From: a virus
IMG/VR virus record: IMGVR_UViG_3300042430_002389
Location: 1 to 27,856 of that record
Strand: one strand, 5' to 3'
DNA length: 27,856 nt
Position 1 is the stretch's first letter. Every line of letters starts with the position of its first letter. A program made the position numbers and the translations under genes. Below the pieces are notes generated by a model, which did no database searches, had not been told where the DNA came from, and was given only the letters and a program-made list of their open reading frames with translations. Positions 1 through 13,818 of the stretch are shown one piece after another.

Positions 1-73
1 CTGCTTCCCTCTCTTGCTTACGCTTGGCGTTCCTATTTGATTGCTCTCCGAGCAGTAGAATCATATTACTCAT
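1..73 (-). CDS. Partial CDS, N-terminus only, unknown
   Basis: Reading leftward from an ATG at 73 gives 24 open codons (MSNMILLLGEQSNRNAKRK..., basic and Arg/Lys rich) that run off the left edge. The ATG overlaps the TGA of the ParB-like gene in an ATGA junction, the same arrangement as many junctions in this operon, which is the main support for the start. Too little is present to assign a function. Confidence 0.55.
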   Translation of the reverse strand, partial: MSNMILLLGEQSNRNAKRKQEREA

Positions 74-684
74 TGTGTAGATATTTTATGCTCTTCGATT
101 ATGTTTAAAAGCCCCTCTTCTAAGGTAGTCCCCACAGACAGTAGGTAGTCTGTTACGCTGGCATACGCTTCGGTATTATACCTTAGGGTAATTTTCTTAG
201 CCTTATCATCGTTCTTAACCTTCTCTGCCTCTTCCATCATCTCATCCATGCCATACATGATGTCCATACCCATAGCTTCTAACAACTCTTGCTCCCAGTC
301 ATTAGCCAAGAGGTCGTAGTCATTTTCACCGAAGGATACGTTGTCTTTGATGGTAATGGCTTTAAGCATTTCTAGGCTCGTAGAAGCCTCCAAAATCTTA
401 CATGGCACTTCTGCCCACCCAAGCTCTTTAACTGCGTGTAATCGCATATTACCAGCTATTACGATGTACTCTATCTGTGACTGATGCTTAGACTTTAGAG
501 TAGGTGTGTACGGATACACGATAAGCTCTCTAAGTTGCATCATATCGGGGTCATCTTGTATCGACTTTAACAACTTATTGAATCTGTTGTCTTTGATTAA
601 CCTAGGGTTCTTAGGTAGTCCTTCGATTTGACCGAGGTTATTCTTTAGCTGATACAGCTTTAGGGTTTTAGTTTCCTTCAACAT
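70..684 (-). CDS. ParB-like (ParB/sulfiredoxin-fold) phage protein
   Basis: 204 aa from the chosen start. The ParB N-terminal signature is visible: an NPR motif near residue 26, an 'I-x-GNMRLHA' box near residues 75-84 (the nucleotide-binding GxxR box of ParB/Srx folds), then the 'KDNVSFGENDYDLLANDW' segment common in phage ParB-like proteins. Chromosomal ParB proteins bind parS and CTP; phage relatives near terminases and methyltransferases are often stand-alone nuclease-like or regulatory proteins, and no helix-turn-helix follows the ParB box here, so a partition role is not supported. An upstream in-frame ATG at 714 would add MFSGKVKPRR but overlap the zinc-ribbon gene by 47 nt. The ATG at 684 overlaps by 17 nt and is preferred. 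No parA partner is present in the window. Confidence 0.8.
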   Translation of the reverse strand: MLKETKTLKLYQLKNNLGQIEGLPKNPRLIKDNRFNKLLKSIQDDPDMMQLRELIVYPYTPTLKSKHQSQIEYIVIAGNMRLHAVKELGWAEVPCKILEASTSLEMLKAITIKDNVSFGENDYDLLANDWEQELLEAMGMDIMYGMDEMMEEAEKVKNDDKAKKITLRYNTEAYASVTDYLLSVGTTLEEGLLNIIEEHKISTQ

Positions 685-835
685 TCTTCTTGGCTTTACC
701 TTCCCACTGAACATTGGTAAGTAGTGATAAGCAATAAGGGCAGAATGCTCCGCCCTTTAAATCTATGTACAGCTGTTTTGGATCGTGTGCTACGAGTCCA
801 TGCTTGGGACAGTTTCCTATGTATCCTTTTTTCAT
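668..835 (-). CDS. Small zinc-ribbon protein (55 aa)
   Basis: The ATG at 835 overlaps the TGA of the upstream gene (ATGA). The 55-aa product has a CPKHG motif at residues 9-13 and a CPYC motif at residues 32-35, so three Cys plus one His form a probable zinc-binding ribbon. It ends at 668 inside the ParB-like gene. Such proteins are common in phage early operons and may bind nucleic acid or protein, but the partner is unknown. The tight coupling on both sides and the paired metal ligands argue that the gene is real despite its size. Confidence 0.65.
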   Translation of the reverse strand: MKKGYIGNCPKHGLVAHDPKQLYIDLKGGAFCPYCLSLLTNVQWEGKAKKNVEGN

Positions 836-2636: not shown

Positions 2637-3107
2637 TCATTCGTTAGTTAGGGTTTCAGACTCAGCAAGCATCTGCCTTCTCATCTCTATGGCTCTCTCT
2701 ATCCTTGCGTGGGACTCCACTACATATCCGAGCTTTAAAGCCCTTGCAGCCTTCGACAATTCGTTTACGATGGGGTCTGCATCTAAGGCTATGTCATCCG
2801 CTTTGTTTGTAACAACTTTCCGCACCCAGGTGAAGTCTTTGTTGTTGCAGAATATCTGATCTTCCACCACTTCTATTGCGTGGATGATGGTAGAGTGATG
2901 TCTGTCCCCGAATATCTTGCCTAGCTGGCTAAGTGTTACGCTTGGTGCGTACTTGCGGATGAGCCATATAGCGCACTGTCTTGCTCCCACTATCTCTCTC
3001 CTGCGCTTCTTGCTAATCATATCGGCATGGTCTATACCGGTATTGTTAGTTACGATTTCTATTACATCTGAGATTACCTTACTGGTGTCTTGCTTCAACT
3101 CACTCAC
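2637..3107 (-). CDS. DnaA domain IV-like (Bac_DnaA_C) DNA-binding protein
   Basis: 156 aa from a GTG at 3107. It corresponds to the C-terminal DNA-binding domain of the replication initiator DnaA. A leading helix and 'ISKKRRREIVGARQCAIWLIRK' (basic-loop region) are followed by 'LSQLGKIFGDRHHSTIIHAIEVVEDQ', in which GDRHHSTIIHA (about residues 67-77) matches the DnaA signature GGRDHSTVLHA that reads DnaA boxes. No AAA+ domain (Walker A/B) is present, so it is not a full DnaA; it could bind DnaA boxes as an initiator, competitor or repressor. In-frame ATGs at 3212 and 3185 would overlap the upstream gene by 86-113 nt, so GTG 3107 (or TTG 3098), next to the upstream TGA at 3100, is preferred. 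A perfect DnaA box lies at 14076-14084. Confidence 0.8.
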   Translation of the reverse strand: MSELKQDTSKVISDVIEIVTNNTGIDHADMISKKRRREIVGARQCAIWLIRKYAPSVTLSQLGKIFGDRHHSTIIHAIEVVEDQIFCNNKDFTWVRKVVTNKADDIALDADPIVNELSKAARALKLGYVVESHARIERAIEMRRQMLAESETLTNE

Positions 3108-3336
3108 TTTCTCCAGTCCTTTCTGTTTGTCCGTACTTCTTTTTAAACCATTCTGTATGCATCTGAAGTGGTCTCGACTGACCATCCTTGAATGCGAGGG
3201 TAAGGTGTTCACGTTCGTGTTGTATGACCTTATCTCTAAGGAAGGATACTATTACCTCCTTGAGGTTCTGTGCAGTTATTACCTCTGTGGGCATTTCGGA
3301 AATGACTTCCGCTGCAATTTCAATTGGTGTTTTCAT
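3100..3336 (-). CDS. Hypothetical small protein
   Basis: 78 aa, mostly helical by composition (MKTPIEIAAEVI..., NLKEVIVSFLRDKVIQHERE) with a C-terminal HTEWFKKKYGQTE. It shares the MKTP start with the gene at 3668-3898 and a helix-then-aromatic-tail plan, so the two may be diverged members of one small phage family. The stop overlaps the probable GTG start region of the DnaA-like gene. Function unknown. Confidence 0.6.
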   Translation of the reverse strand: MKTPIEIAAEVISEMPTEVITAQNLKEVIVSFLRDKVIQHEREHLTLAFKDGQSRPLQMHTEWFKKKYGQTERTGESE

Positions 3337-3338
3337 TT

Positions 3339-3671
3339 TTACGGTTTTAGTTTTTGTAAATCATCTTTTAATCGCTTCAAGAAAGACTCGTTTCCATCAT
3401 CGCCCGACCATAGCCAATCAATTCGCTGCATATAAACCTCGGCCTCGGAAATTATTCTAGCCGCTCGTTTAAACTCCTCGATAATTTCGGGTGGGTATTC
3501 GTAGTGAAACTTATCATCAGGATATTTTTCATACCAATCAGGTCCCATCCACGGCTCGGCTTCCATTTCCTCTTTGGTCTTTTCCTTGCCGTTTTTATCG
3601 ACCATATCGTCTATATCATCGACCACATCAGCAAGTCTATGCTGTAAGTAGTCCCAGTGTCCTCCGCTCAT
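3339..3671 (-). CDS. Conserved phage/bacterial small protein (MSGGHWDY family), unknown function
   Basis: 110 aa, acidic and Trp/Tyr rich. The N-terminal MSGGHWDYLQHRL and the C-terminal 'AEVYMQRIDWLWSGDDGNESFLKRL' are the two blocks I associate with a widespread uncharacterised family that begins MSGGHFDY and carries RIDWLxSGDDGxESF. The middle is a charged linker rich in Asp/Glu/Pro/Trp. It is joined to the next gene by an ATGA overlap at 3668-3671. No catalytic motif is recognised. Confidence 0.7.
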   Translation of the reverse strand: MSGGHWDYLQHRLADVVDDIDDMVDKNGKEKTKEEMEAEPWMGPDWYEKYPDDKFHYEYPPEIIEEFKRAARIISEAEVYMQRIDWLWSGDDGNESFLKRLKDDLQKLKP

Positions 3672-3898
3672 TTCTGTTTAGTGTTAAAGGTTCCGTTGTA
3701 GTATTCTTGCTTCTCAACCAGCATCCAGGTATCTTCATCCCATACAGTATGTGAACCTGCTTCATAAGCATCCATAATCACCTCTTTCTCTTTCTCCAAC
3801 ATTGATTCAATCTTGTCTAAGATGACTCTGTGTTCGTATCCATCAAGTTTTAATTCTGTATTAACCCAATGGTGTAATTCTTGCATCGGTGTTTTCAT
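3668..3898 (-). CDS. Small phage protein of the MKTPMQEL...EYYNxTF type
   Basis: 76 aa. MKTPMQELHHWVNTEL, a central helix 'ILDKIESMLEKEKEVIMDAYEAG' and the C-terminal 'VEKQEYYNGTF' fit a short family very common in Bacteroidota phages and prophages (MKTxMQ..., LLEKEKxxIxxA, EQYYNETF). Function is unknown; all-helical with an aromatic tail. It starts at a TAATG junction with the membrane microprotein gene and ends at an ATGA junction. Confidence 0.7.
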   Translation of the reverse strand: MKTPMQELHHWVNTELKLDGYEHRVILDKIESMLEKEKEVIMDAYEAGSHTVWDEDTWMLVEKQEYYNGTFNTKQK

Positions 3899-4047
3899 TA
3901 TCCAAAAATTAAAGCAATGGCTGCCGTGCCAAAGAAGGCAAGGAAAGCGCAGTAAGACAGTAAGGCTATGATGTCAATCACAAAATAGATGATGGACTTT
4001 GCCCAGTAGCCGATTGGCAGATGGCTGGTTGAATAGTTAGCTTTCAT
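3898..4047 (-). CDS. Membrane microprotein (49 aa)
   Basis: An ATG at 4047 overlaps the previous TGA (ATGA) and the TAA at 3898-3900 overlaps the next ATG (TAATG), so the frame exactly fills the gap between two genes. The product begins MKANYSTSHLPIGYWAKS and continues into about 30 hydrophobic residues (IIYFVIDIIALLSYCAFLAFFG and beyond), enough for one long or two short transmembrane helices. Nothing like a lysis cassette is nearby, so a holin role is not suggested; membrane anchoring or superinfection functions are possible but unsupported. Confidence 0.6.
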   Translation of the reverse strand: MKANYSTSHLPIGYWAKSIIYFVIDIIALLSYCAFLAFFGTAAIALIFG

Positions 4048-4505: not shown

Positions 4506-5855
4506 TTATTCATTATTCCATTGCCTTACGATTGTTGTTTTCTCAGGAATGGGAAGGGGTTTGAACTTAGGAGCGTAGTCCATGACCTTGGTATACTTTA
4601 GGTCGGTAGAGGCAACAGCTACTCCAAGCTCTCCGTTTCTATTCTTGCGGACCAATATCTCCATCACATCCTTAGCATCCTCGAAGGCTGGAGCAGACTC
4701 TTCCATATACGCTGCTGGACGATAACAGAACAGCACCTTGTCTGCATCATATTCCAGCTGGCCACTCTCTCTAAGGTCTGCCATAAATGGTCTCTTATCT
4801 TCTCTCTCTTCGACTTTCCGACTTAAGGATGATATAAGACATATCCAAACACCTTGACGCTTACACATAGCCTTAAACTGCTTCGAGATGTTAGTGATTT
4901 GCTCTACCTTGTTTTTCATCTTATCCTCCCTCATCGGAGAGACAAGCTGGAGGTAGTCGATGTACACGCCTTCCACTCCATGCTGGCGAACCATCCTTGC
5001 TATCTCGGATTCTATCTTGACCGGGTCGGCATCGGGTTGATCACTAATGTACAGCTTAGTGTTTTTAAGTTTGTCTACATGGGCAGCCACTTGGTTTATC
5101 TCCTGAACGCTGAGGTTCTCTACGATGTTGATGAACTTCTTACCATCTATCTCGGTAGAGTTGCTTAGAAGCCTTGAGGTAAGCTGCTCGGTAGACATCT
5201 CCATAGTGATGAAGCCAACTGCTGTATCCTTCTGCGCTTGGTTGTATGCCATCTGAAGTGCGAGCGTTGTTTTGCCATGGGCAGGTCTGCCTCCAAGGAT
5301 TATGAAGTCCCCAGGCTGGAAGCCATTCACGATACTGTCTAAGGCTCTTAGGTGCGTCTTAGTGGACTTAACTTTCTCCTTGCCATCCTTTATCCTCGCA
5401 ATCTTCTTAACGAAGCTTAGAGCAGCTGTATGAACATCTGTGCTGGTAGCATCGATGTCATCCGCATTAAGGACATTGAACTGCTCGAAAGCCTTCGGGA
5501 TGTCGAAGTCTGCCATAAGCTCCCTCTTTATCTCTTCCAGCTTATTAGCCTTGTACATATCATGCAGTTCGGCTATGTAGTGTTTAACGTGCTGAAGCTC
5601 GAAGATACCGCCAGCACTCATCTCTGCCAGCTTAGAAGCATTAGAAGCAAATCCTAAGTCCTTCATCTTTTTAAAGATGGTGAGTACATCTACTGGCTTA
5701 GACTCCCGATGGAGAACCTGGCAAGCAGCGAAGATGTTTCTACGCTCACCGCTGAAGTACTCCGCTCTTAGAGATGTAATTACATTGCCCGTATTCATAT
5801 CGGGGGACATGAGTACTGCGAGGACTTTTTCTTGGACTGCTTCAGAATATTGCAT
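4506..5855 (-). CDS. dnaB: DnaB-like replicative helicase
   Basis: 449 aa, full length for the family. Residues 1-100 form the DnaB N-terminal helical domain (EAVQEKVLAVLMSPD..., SKPVDVLTIFKKM). The RecA-like core starts near 165: Walker A GGRPAHGKT (188-196), the H1a glutamate in ITMEMS (216-221), Walker B GVYIDYLQLV (296-305), and DLRESGQLEYDADKV with an arginine-rich C-terminal part. It unwinds DNA ahead of the phage fork as a hexameric 5'-3' helicase in the cytoplasm. It follows the DnaD-like gene with a 14-nt overlap, the usual loader-helicase order in phage operons. Confidence 0.95.
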   Translation of the reverse strand: MQYSEAVQEKVLAVLMSPDMNTGNVITSLRAEYFSGERRNIFAACQVLHRESKPVDVLTIFKKMKDLGFASNASKLAEMSAGGIFELQHVKHYIAELHDMYKANKLEEIKRELMADFDIPKAFEQFNVLNADDIDATSTDVHTAALSFVKKIARIKDGKEKVKSTKTHLRALDSIVNGFQPGDFIILGGRPAHGKTTLALQMAYNQAQKDTAVGFITMEMSTEQLTSRLLSNSTEIDGKKFINIVENLSVQEINQVAAHVDKLKNTKLYISDQPDADPVKIESEIARMVRQHGVEGVYIDYLQLVSPMREDKMKNKVEQITNISKQFKAMCKRQGVWICLISSLSRKVEEREDKRPFMADLRESGQLEYDADKVLFCYRPAAYMEESAPAFEDAKDVMEILVRKNRNGELGVAVASTDLKYTKVMDYAPKFKPLPIPEKTTIVRQWNNE

Positions 5856-6552
5856 TGGCTGGTGGCTGGTAAGTTGTTGTTTCTTTCTTTATTGGGGTTG
5901 CAAAAATAGATGGAATTTCATCATTGAAGCACTTTTGATTTAAATAAGTTGCTGGAAGCTTTCGGTAGTTAGGGTCACTCTTCCAAAGGACATAGCTACT
6001 GACTGTCTCTAAGACCTTATCCATCTCTTCGGGAGATAGCTTATGCCATGACTTGAGTGCTGTTGCTCTGCTTTCCTTTTTATTGTAGACTTCCCAAAAT
6101 ATGTTAAACTTATCCACAATGCTTGTAGGTTCTAAATCTTTTGCTTTTTTATCAATTAGACTTTTCTTTTCATTCTTTACATTCTTTTTACTGTCTTCAG
6201 TTTGTCTTACAACTGTCTTCTCATCGTGTAGCGACCCCTGATAACTATCATAGTTACAAATAGTTATCCGTGTGTACTTTGCCGAACTTTCAGAATTTAC
6301 CATGAAATCTTTTTGAAGAATCGATATAAACTGCCTAAGGTAGTCTTTAGAGACTCCTAGGGTAGATGCGATGTCTCTTAGGCTGCCGACTATCTCACCT
6401 CTTCGGCATTCTATCACTTCAGAGCCTATAAGCACCTTCTGATTGCTGTGTGAAGCGTTGAGCAGGATACCTACCCAACACTTCAGTTTAACAGCATCTG
6501 ACCATATCCAATGATCTTGTAGGGACCGCTCTATCTTAATCCATCCGCTCAT
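5842..6552 (-). CDS. DnaD/replisome-organizer-like replication protein
   Basis: 236 aa from ATG 6552 (MSGWIKIERSLQDHWIWSDA...). The N-terminal 'GWIKIxRSLxDHWIW' plus a winged-helix segment (GSLRDIASTLGVSKDYLRQFISILQKD, about residues 75-97) are typical of phage replication initiation/organizer proteins. A Lys-rich linker (about 130-155) leads to a C-terminal 'FWEVYNKKESRATALKSWHKLSPEE...YRKLPATYLNQK', a common C-terminal module of such proteins. It likely recognises the origin or loads the DnaB helicase encoded next. The ATG at 6594 would overlap the 57-aa upstream gene by 46 nt; ATG 6552 forms an ATGA overlap and is preferred. Confidence 0.85.
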   Translation of the reverse strand: MSGWIKIERSLQDHWIWSDAVKLKCWVGILLNASHSNQKVLIGSEVIECRRGEIVGSLRDIASTLGVSKDYLRQFISILQKDFMVNSESSAKYTRITICNYDSYQGSLHDEKTVVRQTEDSKKNVKNEKKSLIDKKAKDLEPTSIVDKFNIFWEVYNKKESRATALKSWHKLSPEEMDKVLETVSSYVLWKSDPNYRKLPATYLNQKCFNDEIPSIFATPIKKETTTYQPPANAIF

Positions 6553-6722
6553 TCTTCCTCCATCAGTTCGAGTTCGTCCAATACAGCCTCCCAAAAGTCT
6601 ATCTCCTCCTGGTCACCATTCCAAGTGACATCATCTAATATTTCTAAGGCATTAAGCTCTGCGGACTTCTTATCGCCATTGTGCCGGTGCAACAACGACA
6701 ATGCTTTCATTTCTGCTGTCAT
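6549..6722 (-). CDS. Small acidic protein (57 aa), unknown
   Basis: This frame has ATGA overlaps on both sides (start at 6722 with the preceding TGA; TGA at 6549-6551 with the next ATG). The product begins MTAEMKALSLLHRHNGDKKSAE and ends in an acidic helix (EEIDFWEAVLDELELMEEE). The length and perfect fit in the gap make it a credible gene; function unknown. Confidence 0.6.
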   Translation of the reverse strand: MTAEMKALSLLHRHNGDKKSAELNALEILDDVTWNGDQEEIDFWEAVLDELELMEEE

Positions 6723-9057: not shown

Positions 9058-9638
9058 TTTAAGAAGGCTTGAAGGTCTACGATAAGGAGATTGATGTCGG
9101 TAGCACCAAGATGCTCAATACGCTTGAGTTGGTCAAACTTGTACTTCATAGCTATGCGGACCAATCCACCAGCATCTTTGTTTTTACCTTGCTCCCAAAG
9201 TTCCTTAGCCATCTTAACCTGACCATCACTCGCTGGCTTCTGCTGCGGTGCTGGCAGTGGCTGTGCTGGAGGAGTAGTTCTGCCCGAAGCCATATTGGCA
9301 TCGTCATCAAATGCCATCAAGGCCAAGCAGCTCTGCAAAGTGTACCTGCGGAAATAAGTTATCTCAGATCCGACAGCCTGGGGATTGTTGCTGCCAGTCA
9401 GCTTCATCTCGCTGCTAAGGCTCTCACCGCTTTCTACATGGTAGATGATGGAGATGACTTTCTCATCGGTGATAGGCTGCAATAATAGCAAGCCATGCTT
9501 CTCAAGGATAGGCTCGACCTGGTCTATGATAGAATTGATGTCGGCATAGTTCTTCTTAAAGAAAGGATTCTTTTGGTCTTTCTTGATTGAGCCGATTTCT
9601 TTTTTTGCCTCATATAAGGCTTTGATGATGTTCTTCAT
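9054..9638 (-). CDS. erf: ERF family single-strand DNA annealing protein
   Basis: 194 aa. The ERF hallmarks are present: 'KKNYADINSIIDQVEPILEKHGL' near residues 29-50 and the signature 'GSEITYFRRYTLQSCLAL' (90-107) followed by DDDAN (111-115). A Pro/Gln-rich linker (PPAQPLPAPQQKP) leads to a small helical C-terminal domain. ERF proteins anneal complementary single strands and drive phage recombination and end-joining or circularisation. It is ATGA-coupled to the methyltransferase gene; the DUF1064 nuclease and SSB-tail protein in the same operon would be natural partners (inference). Confidence 0.92.
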   Translation of the reverse strand: MKNIIKALYEAKKEIGSIKKDQKNPFFKKNYADINSIIDQVEPILEKHGLLLLQPITDEKVISIIYHVESGESLSSEMKLTGSNNPQAVGSEITYFRRYTLQSCLALMAFDDDANMASGRTTPPAQPLPAPQQKPASDGQVKMAKELWEQGKNKDAGGLVRIAMKYKFDQLKRIEHLGATDINLLIVDLQAFLK

Positions 9639-9644
9639 TTGTAG

Positions 9645-9824
9645 TTAGATTAATTTGTTTTTGTAAAGTTTGTCAATTAGTTTTCTTCTCTGCTTCTCAG
9701 CCTCTTCGCTGGCAGGGTCAACATCAGGGATAACTGTTGTCATCACCGCAGGCTTCCAGCCTTGCTGCTGGGCTAGGGTAGGCTTCCTAGACTGCCTCAG
9801 CCTCTTGTAGTCTATTTCGTACAT
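9645..9824 (-). CDS. Small basic protein (59 aa)
   Basis: The open frame from ATG 9824 fills the gap upstream of erf. The product (MYEIDYKRLRQSRKPTLAQQ..., ending in KQRRKLIDKLYKNKLI) is basic with a central 'GWKPAVMTTVIPD' piece. It overlaps the upstream HTH-protein gene by 38 nt, more than other junctions here; a later ATG at 9743 would avoid that but leave 32 aa. Without it the gap would be 148 nt, atypical for this operon. Confidence 0.45.
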   Translation of the reverse strand: MYEIDYKRLRQSRKPTLAQQQGWKPAVMTTVIPDVDPASEEAEKQRRKLIDKLYKNKLI

Positions 9825-10155
9825 CTTTGGTTTCTTTAGTTGAATAGTGTCGGTAAATCTTATTAATATACATCCTCAAGCTAAACCGCCATCTGCGGCT
9901 TAATGTCTTAGGATCCATAATCGTTTGGTTTCTCTCTGCTCTCTCTAAGATTGCAATCATCACCTTTAGGTCATACTTGCTTCTCTCTCTGTTCAGGTAG
10001 TCCCATATCTTGAAGATGGATACATCAAGCTCCTTAGCAATTTCGGATACATCACCATAGACGATGAACTGCTTCATCTCTTGGATGGCTTCGAACGGCA
10101 ATGGCCAATTTTTAGTAATCAGCTTGCGTTCGTGTATGTCTCTCATTTTTGGCAT
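9787..10155 (-). CDS. Helix-turn-helix-like protein
   Basis: 122 aa, basic. Residues about 29-56 (KQFIVYGDVSEIAKELDVSIFKIWDYLNRE) read as a tri-helical DNA-binding unit with an HTH core 'SEIAKELDVSIFKIWDYL'. The rest is Arg/Lys rich (SRRWRFSLRMYINKIYRHY). A role as early transcription or replication regulator is plausible. A second start at residue 4 (MRDIHERK) is possible. It overlaps the next small ORF. Confidence 0.65.
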   Translation of the reverse strand: MPKMRDIHERKLITKNWPLPFEAIQEMKQFIVYGDVSEIAKELDVSIFKIWDYLNRERSKYDLKVMIAILERAERNQTIMDPKTLSRRWRFSLRMYINKIYRHYSTKETKDVRNRLQEAEAV

Positions 10156-10445: not shown

Positions 10446-10721
10446 TTAATAAACATCAAGCGAAAAAGTGTGCGGAATGTAGATTTTATCAATAAAATCC
10501 TCAATCGTCATCACCTCAACCAAGGGCGGAATAAAGCACCAAGGGAGGACCTCCTCAGTAAGCTTGCCGATGTGGGTGTAGAGCTTCTTAGTGCGCTTGT
10601 CAATGTGATGCTTATAGGTGATGTCAAGCATCCACATCAACTCGGGGTTGTGGTATTTGAGATAGTCAATGGCTTCTTCGCACATCGGGACCATCCAAGA
10701 TCCGGTTACTGTCATTTTCAT
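10446..10721 (-). CDS. Hypothetical protein
   Basis: 91 aa from ATG 10721 (MKMTVTGSWMVPMCEEAIDYL...); the in-frame ATG at 10769 would overlap the upstream gene and was not used. Trp/Met/Pro-rich with 'HNPELMWMLDITYKHHIDK' and 'LPWCFIPPLVEVMTIEDFID'. No membrane segment long enough. Function unknown. A 54-nt gap with only AT-rich sequence follows it on its upstream neighbour's side (10392-10445). Confidence 0.6.
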   Translation of the reverse strand: MKMTVTGSWMVPMCEEAIDYLKYHNPELMWMLDITYKHHIDKRTKKLYTHIGKLTEEVLPWCFIPPLVEVMTIEDFIDKIYIPHTFSLDVY

Positions 10722-10740: not shown

Positions 10741-10974
10741 TTATTTCCAAAGGTTGTCTTCATTCTCAATCCAATATTGGCTTTTCTTAGTTAGGGCATC
10801 AACTTCTTTATCGCTGAATGGGAGTGTATTGCCGCCAGGCTCAACCCCTATAACCTGCCATCCTTTTTTGTACATATAAGAGATGTAGTTGCTGAGATGG
10901 CGGTCATCAGTAAACTGCTTTTGCAGTTCTTTGTATCTGCCTTGCTGATCTTTAATAGTGATTGTCGCTGTCAT
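10741..10974 (-). CDS. Hypothetical protein
   Basis: 77 aa. N-terminal beta-like 'TATITIKDQQGRYKELQKQFTDDRHLSNYISYMYKKGWQVIGVEPG' resembles a small alpha/beta fold; the C-terminus is 'KKSQYWIENEDNLWK'. ATGA junction with the upstream membrane microprotein gene. Function unknown. Confidence 0.6.
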   Translation of the reverse strand: MTATITIKDQQGRYKELQKQFTDDRHLSNYISYMYKKGWQVIGVEPGGNTLPFSDKEVDALTKKSQYWIENEDNLWK

Positions 10975-11135
10975 TTGTAGTCAGATTCGTCATCAATGAT
11001 GGATGATTTGAAGGCTATAAAGGCTGCTAACGCTATTAGGAAGCAGAGTCCAGCTACCTTCGTCACCAGCTCTAAATCGTCAGTAAACCAAATGCCGTGA
11101 ATGCTCAGGGCAATCGTCAAGAGAAGTACTTTCAT
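10971..11135 (-). CDS. Membrane microprotein (54 aa)
   Basis: ATGA overlaps bound this frame on both sides (ATG 11135 with the TGA of the first operon gene; TGA 10971-10973 with the next ATG). The product starts with a hydrophobic MKVLLLTIALSIHGIWF and has a second strong hydrophobic helix (VAGLCFLIALAAFIAF, residues 27-42) before an acidic tail (IIDDESDYK), so one or two membrane spans. Function unknown; early-expressed phage membrane microproteins may alter host envelope or exclude other phages (inference). Confidence 0.6.
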   Translation of the reverse strand: MKVLLLTIALSIHGIWFTDDLELVTKVAGLCFLIALAAFIAFKSSIIDDESDYK

Positions 11136-11368
11136 ATCGTCAAGGGTTTAACAGTGTGAATCATACCGTCAAGACCATAGGAGCAGTCCCAGCCATTGGC
11201 GTTGAGTTCTGCTTTGATGCGCTTGCATTCCTGGTAAGGGTCTTCATCAAAGTCAAATGTATCTATGATGGCTTTGATTTCGTCAATCGTCAAGCGCTTG
11301 GGTAGGCTTGCTAACATCACCCTACCATCTGAGGCAGCGATCATGTCCTTTAGAGTTGGTTTGCTCAT
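11132..11368 (-). CDS. Hypothetical protein, first gene of the leftward operon
   Basis: 78 aa: MSKPTLKDMIAASDGRVML... with 'RLTIDEIKAIIDTFDFDEDPYQECKRIKAELNANGWDCSYGLDG'. No recognised domain. Two copies of the TCGTCA motif that fills the upstream control region also occur within its coding sequence (11280, 11287), encoding the TIDE stretch. A candidate promoter lies about 30 nt upstream of its ATG. Confidence 0.6.
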   Translation of the reverse strand: MSKPTLKDMIAASDGRVMLASLPKRLTIDEIKAIIDTFDFDEDPYQECKRIKAELNANGWDCSYGLDGMIHTVKPLTI

Positions 11369-11396
11369 TGTCGTTTCGTTTAGTTGTTTGACTCTG

Positions 11397-11428
11397 CAAT
11401 ACTACAAAGGCTGATTCTAATTGCAAAA
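11397..11428 (-). promoter_or_regulatory. Candidate leftward early promoter
   Basis: Minus strand: TTTTG (11428-11424), 19-bp spacer, TAGTATTG (11404-11397), one mismatch from TAnnTTTG. The predicted start, near 11390, gives a leader of about 20 nt before the ATG at 11368. An A/T-run region lies immediately upstream. Confidence 0.5.
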
Positions 11429-11448
11429 CTTTTTTTAAAATATTTTTT

Positions 11449-11567
11449 TCGTCAGTCGTCAAGTGCTTGTCAATCATCAACTTATCGTCAATAATTTTTT
11501 TCGTCAAGGCATCGTCAGTCGTCAACAAATCGTCAATCGTCAATCGTCAATCGTCAACATATCGTCA
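11449..11567. repeat. TCGTCA repeat cluster in the divergent control region
   Basis: Eleven copies of TCGTCA on the plus strand start at 11449, 11456, 11485, 11501, 11512, 11519, 11530, 11537, 11544, 11551 and 11562; the four at 11530-11556 are perfect tandem heptamers (TCGTCAA) and most others pair at 7-bp spacing. More copies extend left into genes (10987, 11060, 11077, 11114, 11137, 11280, 11287). Lies between the leftward and rightward promoter candidates, so operator or iteron function is plausible. Confidence 0.85.
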
Positions 11568-11688: not shown

Positions 11689-11704
11689 AACTTTTTAAAA
11701 AGTT
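11689..11704. repeat. 16-bp AT palindrome
   Basis: AACTTTTTAAAAAGTT, a perfect palindrome immediately upstream of the rightward promoter, followed by further T/A runs (11704-11720). It may be a curved or easily melted UP-like element. Confidence 0.4.
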
Positions 11705-11718
11705 TTTTAAAAAAAGTT

Positions 11719-11747
11719 TTGCAGTTTGGGAAACGTCCGTATATTTG
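11719..11747 (+). promoter_or_regulatory. Rightward promoter for the Gp88 block
   Basis: TTG (11719-11721), 18-bp spacer, TATATTTG (11740-11747), a perfect TAnnTTTG -7 element. The predicted start near 11753 leaves about 22 nt before the ATG at 11775, with an A-rich leader (AACAAATAAACAAAACGACAA). Confidence 0.65.
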
Positions 11748-11774
11748 CACTCAACAAATAAACAAAACGACAAA

Positions 11775-13701: not shown

Positions 13702-13763
13702 ACTAACCAAACTATGCTGATTTCAGTCAAAAAAAGCAAAATCGGACAATATATATATTTACT

Positions 13764-13818
13764 AGTAATAGTATTAATAGTAATATCTTATTAATAGTAA
13801 TAGTATTAATAGTAATAT
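13764..13818. repeat. AT-rich 23-bp direct repeat
   Basis: A perfect 23-bp repeat (13764-13786 and 13796-13818; built from AGTAATA and TTAATAGTAAT units) inside a stretch of about 90 bases that is nearly all A/T (13748-13838). A natural DNA-unwinding element. Confidence 0.85.

Follow-up and report, generated by a model that had tools for sequence, protein, structure and literature searches.

Analysis of the window, by which we mean the whole stretch of 27,856 bases examined here (a virus record that is a linear fragment), revealed at the junction between its leftward and rightward genes a dense, directional array of the heptamer TTGACGA, which thins out through the first leftward genes and recurs in a large, previously undescribed clade of phages. 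With somewhat less than even confidence, we read the array as a set of asymmetric heptameric operators at which a phage DNA-binding protein would shut down or meter the leftward early operon by promoter occlusion and stoperator-like roadblocks, the leading candidate for the reader being a small predicted helix-turn-helix (HTH) protein encoded in that operon (Table 1).

The repeat is best described as TTGACGA, mostly with a T after it, read on the minus strand, which is the strand of the leftward genes; on the plus strand it appears as TCGTCA. Eighteen copies of TCGTCA, all on one strand, lie within 581 bp. Our recount agrees with the preliminary description of this DNA, which had reported eleven copies in 119 bp (11449-11567), four perfect tandem TCGTCAA heptamers (located at 11530-11557), at least seven further copies at 10987-11292 (seven in the recount) and a single orientation for all of them (plus strand, as TCGTCA). 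Shuffling puts the chance rate at about one hexamer per 7 kb per strand, not far from the figure given there of about one per 4 kb on each strand. Over the whole window and both strands, TCGTCA occurs 26 times against 7.95 expected (sd 3.0), a count that none of 100 shuffles reached, and the densest 119 bp hold 11 copies against at most two in 200 whole-window dinucleotide shuffles. The copies are thus non-uniform along the window, and the equal genome-wide density that would have made the cluster unremarkable is absent. An apparent gap within the array is filled by two one-mismatch copies (on the plus strand, TTGTCAA at 11467-11473 and TCATCAA at 11474-11480), so that successive steps are 7, 11, 7, 11, 16, 11, 7, 11, 7, 7, 7 and 11 bp.

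Table 1. Repeat copies, putative promoters and genes discussed in the text, in positions of the window.
Feature	Position	Strand	Remarks
Main array	11449-11567	-	11 exact TGACGA (TTGACGA-type) and 2 one-mismatch copies, all read leftward
Two degenerate copies	11467-11480	-	TTGACAA and TTGATGA on the minus strand, keeping the 7/11 step
Two tandem copies	11280-11292	-	Within the first leftward gene, coding for LTIDE
Five dispersed copies	10987-11142	-	At 10987, 11060, 11077, 11114 and 11137, in the first two leftward genes
Dispersed copy	10505-10510	-	In the fourth leftward gene
Isolated copy	9301-9306	-	In the Erf-like gene, outside the field; may be chance
Putative leftward early promoter	11397-11428	-	Bacteroidota type, predicted: TTTTG (11424-11428), 19 nt, TAGTATTG (11397-11404)
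Putative rightward promoter	11717-11747	+	TTTTG (11717-11721), 18 nt, TATATTTG (11740-11747)
A/T tract	11425-11448		Separates the array from the leftward promoter
First leftward gene	11132-11368	-	78 aa; no family above curated cut-off
Second leftward ORF	10971-11135	-	54 aa; holds four TTGACGA-type copies
Predicted HTH protein	9787-10155	-	122 aa; candidate binder; in 19/19 array contigs tested
DnaD-like helicase loader / replication initiation protein	5842-6594	-	Context
DnaB-like replicative helicase	4506-5855	-	Context; anchor used to find relatives
DnaA DNA-binding domain IV protein	2637-3212	-	PF08299, E 5e-21; no AAA+ detected; alternative candidate binder
ParB_N/nuclease/methyltransferase-like protein	70-714	-	phrog_17622; family matches

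The array lies directly upstream of the A/T tract of the putative leftward promoter; its distance from the putative rightward promoter is about 150 bp. TAnnTTTG is the -7 consensus known from the Bacteroides literature; TAGTATTG differs from it by one mismatch, and most relatives have TAnnTTTG at the same place. Among the 15 contigs inspected, TAnnTTTG stands 8-80 bp past the array in 12, and the group of the window has the one-mismatch form. The divergent promoters with their leaders (11368-11448 and 11697-11773) form a near-perfect inverted pair, matching at 90% over stretches of 30 and 21 nt. In four relatives (L247, L251, L255 and L267) the last two copies of the array occupy the -33/-7 spacer, a position from which bound protein should obstruct polymerase, and this placement favours repression as the likely effect of binding.

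Relatives were sought from the first leftward gene, then by a motif scan of viral contigs and then with terminase (TerL) and DnaB profiles; the contigs are fragments, and locus E-values are relative to the candidate sets. The first-leftward-gene search yielded six relatives, all with leftward TTGACGA copies (five full arrays and a shortened one, in L008), and the motif scan yielded 58 stretches, most of them with 8-20 copies per 300 bp. Since such a scan favours motif carriers, the search was repeated with the terminase and DnaB profiles, and every TerL- or DnaB-anchored relative reaching the divergent junction had 5-20 copies at it, with TGACGA as the top local hexamer wherever the contig spans the junction. 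The comparison among related phages proposed in the preliminary description therefore gives a conserved array, and the motif is constant within the clade. Outgroup phages L276 and L283, whose DnaB is about 42% identical, have no array and a different genome layout. GCTGCC clusters in L223, L227, L283 and L285 were considered as alternative motif arrays and rejected, those of L227, L283 and L285 being coding repeats; in these outgroup contigs (positions 300-800, 3400-3950 and 1350-1850, respectively) an early gene carries a hypervariable Ala/Asp/Tyr-rich repeat of GCTGCC type.

In 12 representative arrays, the steps between exact copies are 7 bp (61 cases) and 10/11 bp (51 cases), followed by 17/18 and 27-29 bp; steps of 8 and 12 are absent, and those of 9 and 13-16 are rare. 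When one-mismatch copies are counted, steps of 7 and 11 account for most of the gaps, both in the window and in its nearest relatives. Promoter-proximal steps of 28-18-7 are kept in many relatives, whereas the copy number of the distal part ranges from about 4 to 16, and this part differs in length even between close relatives. Given this mixture of steps, the earlier statement that the spacing is not that of a helical turn is half true, holding for the 7-bp steps but not for the 10/11-bp steps, which correspond to one turn. The argument drawn from it, that a 7-bp step speaks against operators, is weak in view of the mixed steps and of known heptad-repeat regulator sites (PMC9499535), although the classes proposed with it, an iteron cluster or a cooperative regulator site, still include the one we consider right. 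Some lineages possess a second TTGACGA array in the right arm, beside an intergenic terminator-like hairpin (e.g. AATAGGGCAATTAAGCCCTATT) and in the same orientation as the main array (L028, 4002-4074; L363, 1942-2122; L364, 2039-2117). No leftward promoter directly adjoins these second arrays, a point against the operator reading, and they show that the site has uses outside the promoter model. Contigs L007 and L009 carry a long (CA)n tract of about 24-34 bp on the right-arm side of the array.

Beyond the array, the copies form a field running into the early genes. Across 19 contigs, the same-strand density in successive 500-bp bins leftward was 27, 7.0, 5.5, 3.7, 2.0, 0.6 and 0.4 per kb, so that the field thins from 27 to below 1 per kb across 2.5 kb; over the first 3 kb the opposite strand held 0-0.1 per kb, and on the right-arm side the density was near zero, except in the lineages with a second array. 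Compared with synonymous-codon shuffles, in which protein sequence and codon usage are preserved, coding copies within the first 2.7 kb are in excess in nine of ten phages (8 observed vs 1.8 shuffled in the window, 20 vs 5.5 in L251 and 15 vs 4.4 in L236), the excess in L212 being not significant; beyond 3 kb, an excess was found in none of the ten. Selection therefore acts on the nucleotides of the first genes, at the DNA or RNA level, and not on the protein.

The gene content of the early region points to few candidates for a protein reading these sites. All 19 array contigs tested encode a 147-aa Gam-like protein, a DnaD-like protein, DnaB and the small predicted HTH protein, and in all 19 the HTH gene, 0.57-2.5 kb from the array, marks the end of the dense field, which stops on reaching this gene or inside it. 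This gene is present in all array loci of the clade with at least 3.5 kb downstream; in the outgroup contigs covering the region (L276 and L283), only the HTH gene and the array are both absent, and HTH-anchored scans returned array phages only, save for L368, a contig too short to tell. The coupling between the end of the field and the HTH gene is partly inherited, because copies inside longer HTH genes travel with the gene, and genes occurring both upstream and downstream of it had too few sites to be informative. AF2 models contain an HTH-like helix pair (residues 33-43 and 47-55, block pLDDT of 84-93), the long form of the protein being modelled with low confidence (pLDDT 61). Searches gave no significant PDB match and no match to Pfam, PHROG or known repressors; among the weak viral fold matches is an HTH protein of Fis type, with a probability of 0.95 but an E-value of 0.36. 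The predicted recognition helix is only about 20-46% identical between lineages while the motif is unchanged, and for this reason the HTH protein is given only a moderate lead as the putative TTGACGA binder. Covariation between motif and recognition helix, in the DnaA_C or the HTH protein, offers no test in the clade, since the motif is invariant.

The leftward genes of the window include Erf, a C5 methyltransferase, the DnaD-like and DnaB-like proteins and the DnaA-domain-IV protein, and the rightward ones GP88, terminase and tape measure. No DNA-level relatives were found among named phages, and the nearest TerL match was that of Bacteroides phage BS-TP3 (about 26% identity); on account of such distant TerL matches and the Bacteroidota-like promoters, the hosts of the array phages are probably Bacteroidota. 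A search of 396 Bacteroidota genomes, run without a positive control, gave no close TerL at E 1e-40. The lack of any integrase in 25 contigs of the clade suggests a virulent life. An Rfam search gave no match; a 15-bp tandem repeat, TTAATAGTAATAGTA, is present in 3.8 copies in the right arm (13759-13817).

Under the operator reading that we prefer, early transcription would begin at the leftward promoter, and a regulator made from the early operon, presumably the predicted HTH protein, would bind the array as monomers sitting head to tail and cooperatively, covering the promoter so that initiation stops. Bound copies within the first genes may in addition act as polar roadblocks to the elongating polymerase, or meter transcription toward the regulator gene. 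The combination of promoter occlusion and downstream roadblocks would let the operon, regulator included, shut itself off or be metered after early expression; with no integrase in the 25 contigs, an ordinary lysogeny repressor is not what we envisage. Put more generally, and as a proposal that we regard as rather unlikely in its full extent, an uncharacterised family of HTH-like phage proteins might read a directional heptamer in two settings, a dense lattice at the early promoter and graded roadblocks in the coding sequence up to the gene of the reader itself, so that early transcription is polar and limits itself, in phages with no sign of lysogeny.

The main rival is a replication origin, in which the array would be an iteron cluster with an A/T unwinding element, and a phage initiator (the DnaA-domain-IV, DnaD-like or HTH protein) would load DnaB leftward. 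Every array phage with a sufficiently long contig encodes DnaB, the DnaD-like protein and DnaA_C, A/T-rich DNA is found next to the array or inside it and the cumulative GC skew has its minimum near this region, but the change of skew falls together with the change of gene strand, L276 and L283 retain Gam, DnaD and DnaB (L276 also a DnaA_C-like protein) and yet lack the array, and neither copies in the promoter spacer nor a field confined to early genes would be predicted. Canonical DnaA boxes are not enriched either, TTATNCACA having 12 near-matches against 29 expected and no cluster, and we hold an origin to be improbable, if worth keeping in view. Still less probable is a role as binder for the phage's DnaA-domain-IV protein, which would recognise an altered DnaA box in regulation or in initiation. 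This protein occurs in 16 of the 16 array contigs long enough to show it, its recognition helix HST(I/V)(I/V)H is nearly as constant as the motif (RHHSTIIH in the window, DHSTVIH-like in other lineages), outgroup DnaA_C copies carry a different helix (HATVMHN), and ATCGTCA has ATC..CA in common with TTATCCACA. Its helix, however, resembles the one with which host DnaA reads TTATCCACA, and 7-11 kb separate its gene, which has no sites nearby, from the array. A conserved host factor, hijacked or titrated by the phage, would account for a motif that stays constant although the phages' own candidate proteins differ strongly; we judge it quite unlikely, because the sites stop at one phage gene and are bound to one phage clade, and two unrelated TTGACGA-tract phages (G044 and G031) have pure 7-bp tandems only, without any of the clade's early genes.

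Plain tandems of this kind bear on the suggestion, made in the preliminary description, of a microsatellite in expansion, that is, a neutral heptamer tract arising by slippage and having no specific function. Plain heptamer tracts of (TTGACGA)n and of the related ATTGAC type exist in many bacterial phyla, so that a 7-bp tandem proves nothing by itself and the tandem part of the array could have started as a microsatellite. Such tracts recur in unrelated bacterial phyla and in unrelated phages (loci L089-L168, L371 and L372), and a GTDB scan for host genomes with the same array gave only plain heptamer tracts among the matches listed. Slippage would suit at most the variable distal tail, whose length differs between close relatives, but not the kept promoter-proximal spacing, the 10/11-bp steps with their varied spacer letters, the coding copies above synonymous expectation or the one-sided gradient, and as an explanation of the whole array, which the synonymous-codon comparison already contradicts, it is very improbable. 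Equally improbable is the centromere-like site for a ParB-like protein that had also been put forward, here as a parS-like element of a phage or plasmid-prophage partition system. Promoter-overlapping heptad parS arrays do exist in pSM19035 (PMC9499535), and the window encodes a ParB_N-like protein, but this protein also matches nuclease and methyltransferase families, its gene is about 11 kb away, neither ParA nor a ribbon-helix-helix (RHH) protein was seen among the proteins scanned in this fragment, and the coding-sequence gradient would be left unexplained. A Chi-like recombination hotspot, likewise a directional heptamer, was set aside because it leaves the links to the promoter and to the HTH gene unexplained.

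Regulation in phages apparently infecting Bacteroidota is poorly known, and the clade offers a very strong cis-signal together with few candidate binders. If the operator reading is correct, only the L5 stoperators would offer a clearer example of control by sites lying within a transcribed operon, and codon choice would here be seen to be shaped by a DNA-binding protein. Among the papers searched, none dealt with TTGACGA. Several known systems resemble the array in part. Iterons are usually about 17-22 bp long; like iteron origins, the array consists of direct repeats next to A/T-rich DNA, and the phage encodes DnaA-, DnaD- and DnaB-like proteins, but the repeats of the array extend over a promoter and, at decreasing density, through coding genes. 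The same heptamer occurs in tandem in bacterial (TTGACGA)n microsatellites, which, unlike the array, are almost all plain single-period tandems with no tie to an early promoter or a gradient. At the parS of pSM19035, 7-10 consecutive non-palindromic WATCACW heptads overlap promoters and are bound by omega, a ribbon-helix-helix ParB that has a ParA partner and needs contiguous heptads (PMC9499535). The array shares with the omega sites its non-palindromic 7-bp tandem repeats overlapping promoters, and differs in the motif (TTGACGA, not WATCACW), the common 10/11-bp steps, the single orientation and the lack of any ParA seen. In cluster A mycobacteriophages (L5, TipsytheTRex), about 20-30 operators and stoperators of 13-14 bp are distributed across the genome, mostly outside promoters (PMC9283540, PMC6550527); reversed L5 stoperators lose activity (PMC9283540), and in systems of this type the repressor combines an N-terminal HTH with a Stoperator domain and, once bound, stops elongation in one orientation. 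Whereas the sites described here are 7-bp motifs in a dense 7/10-11-bp array, restricted to the first ~2.5 kb and lying also in coding sequence, with a candidate protein of no recognisable homology and no integrase found, they resemble L5-type stoperators in being asymmetric, in standing in one orientation, that of transcription, both at the early promoter and further downstream, and in having an HTH protein as the suspected binder.
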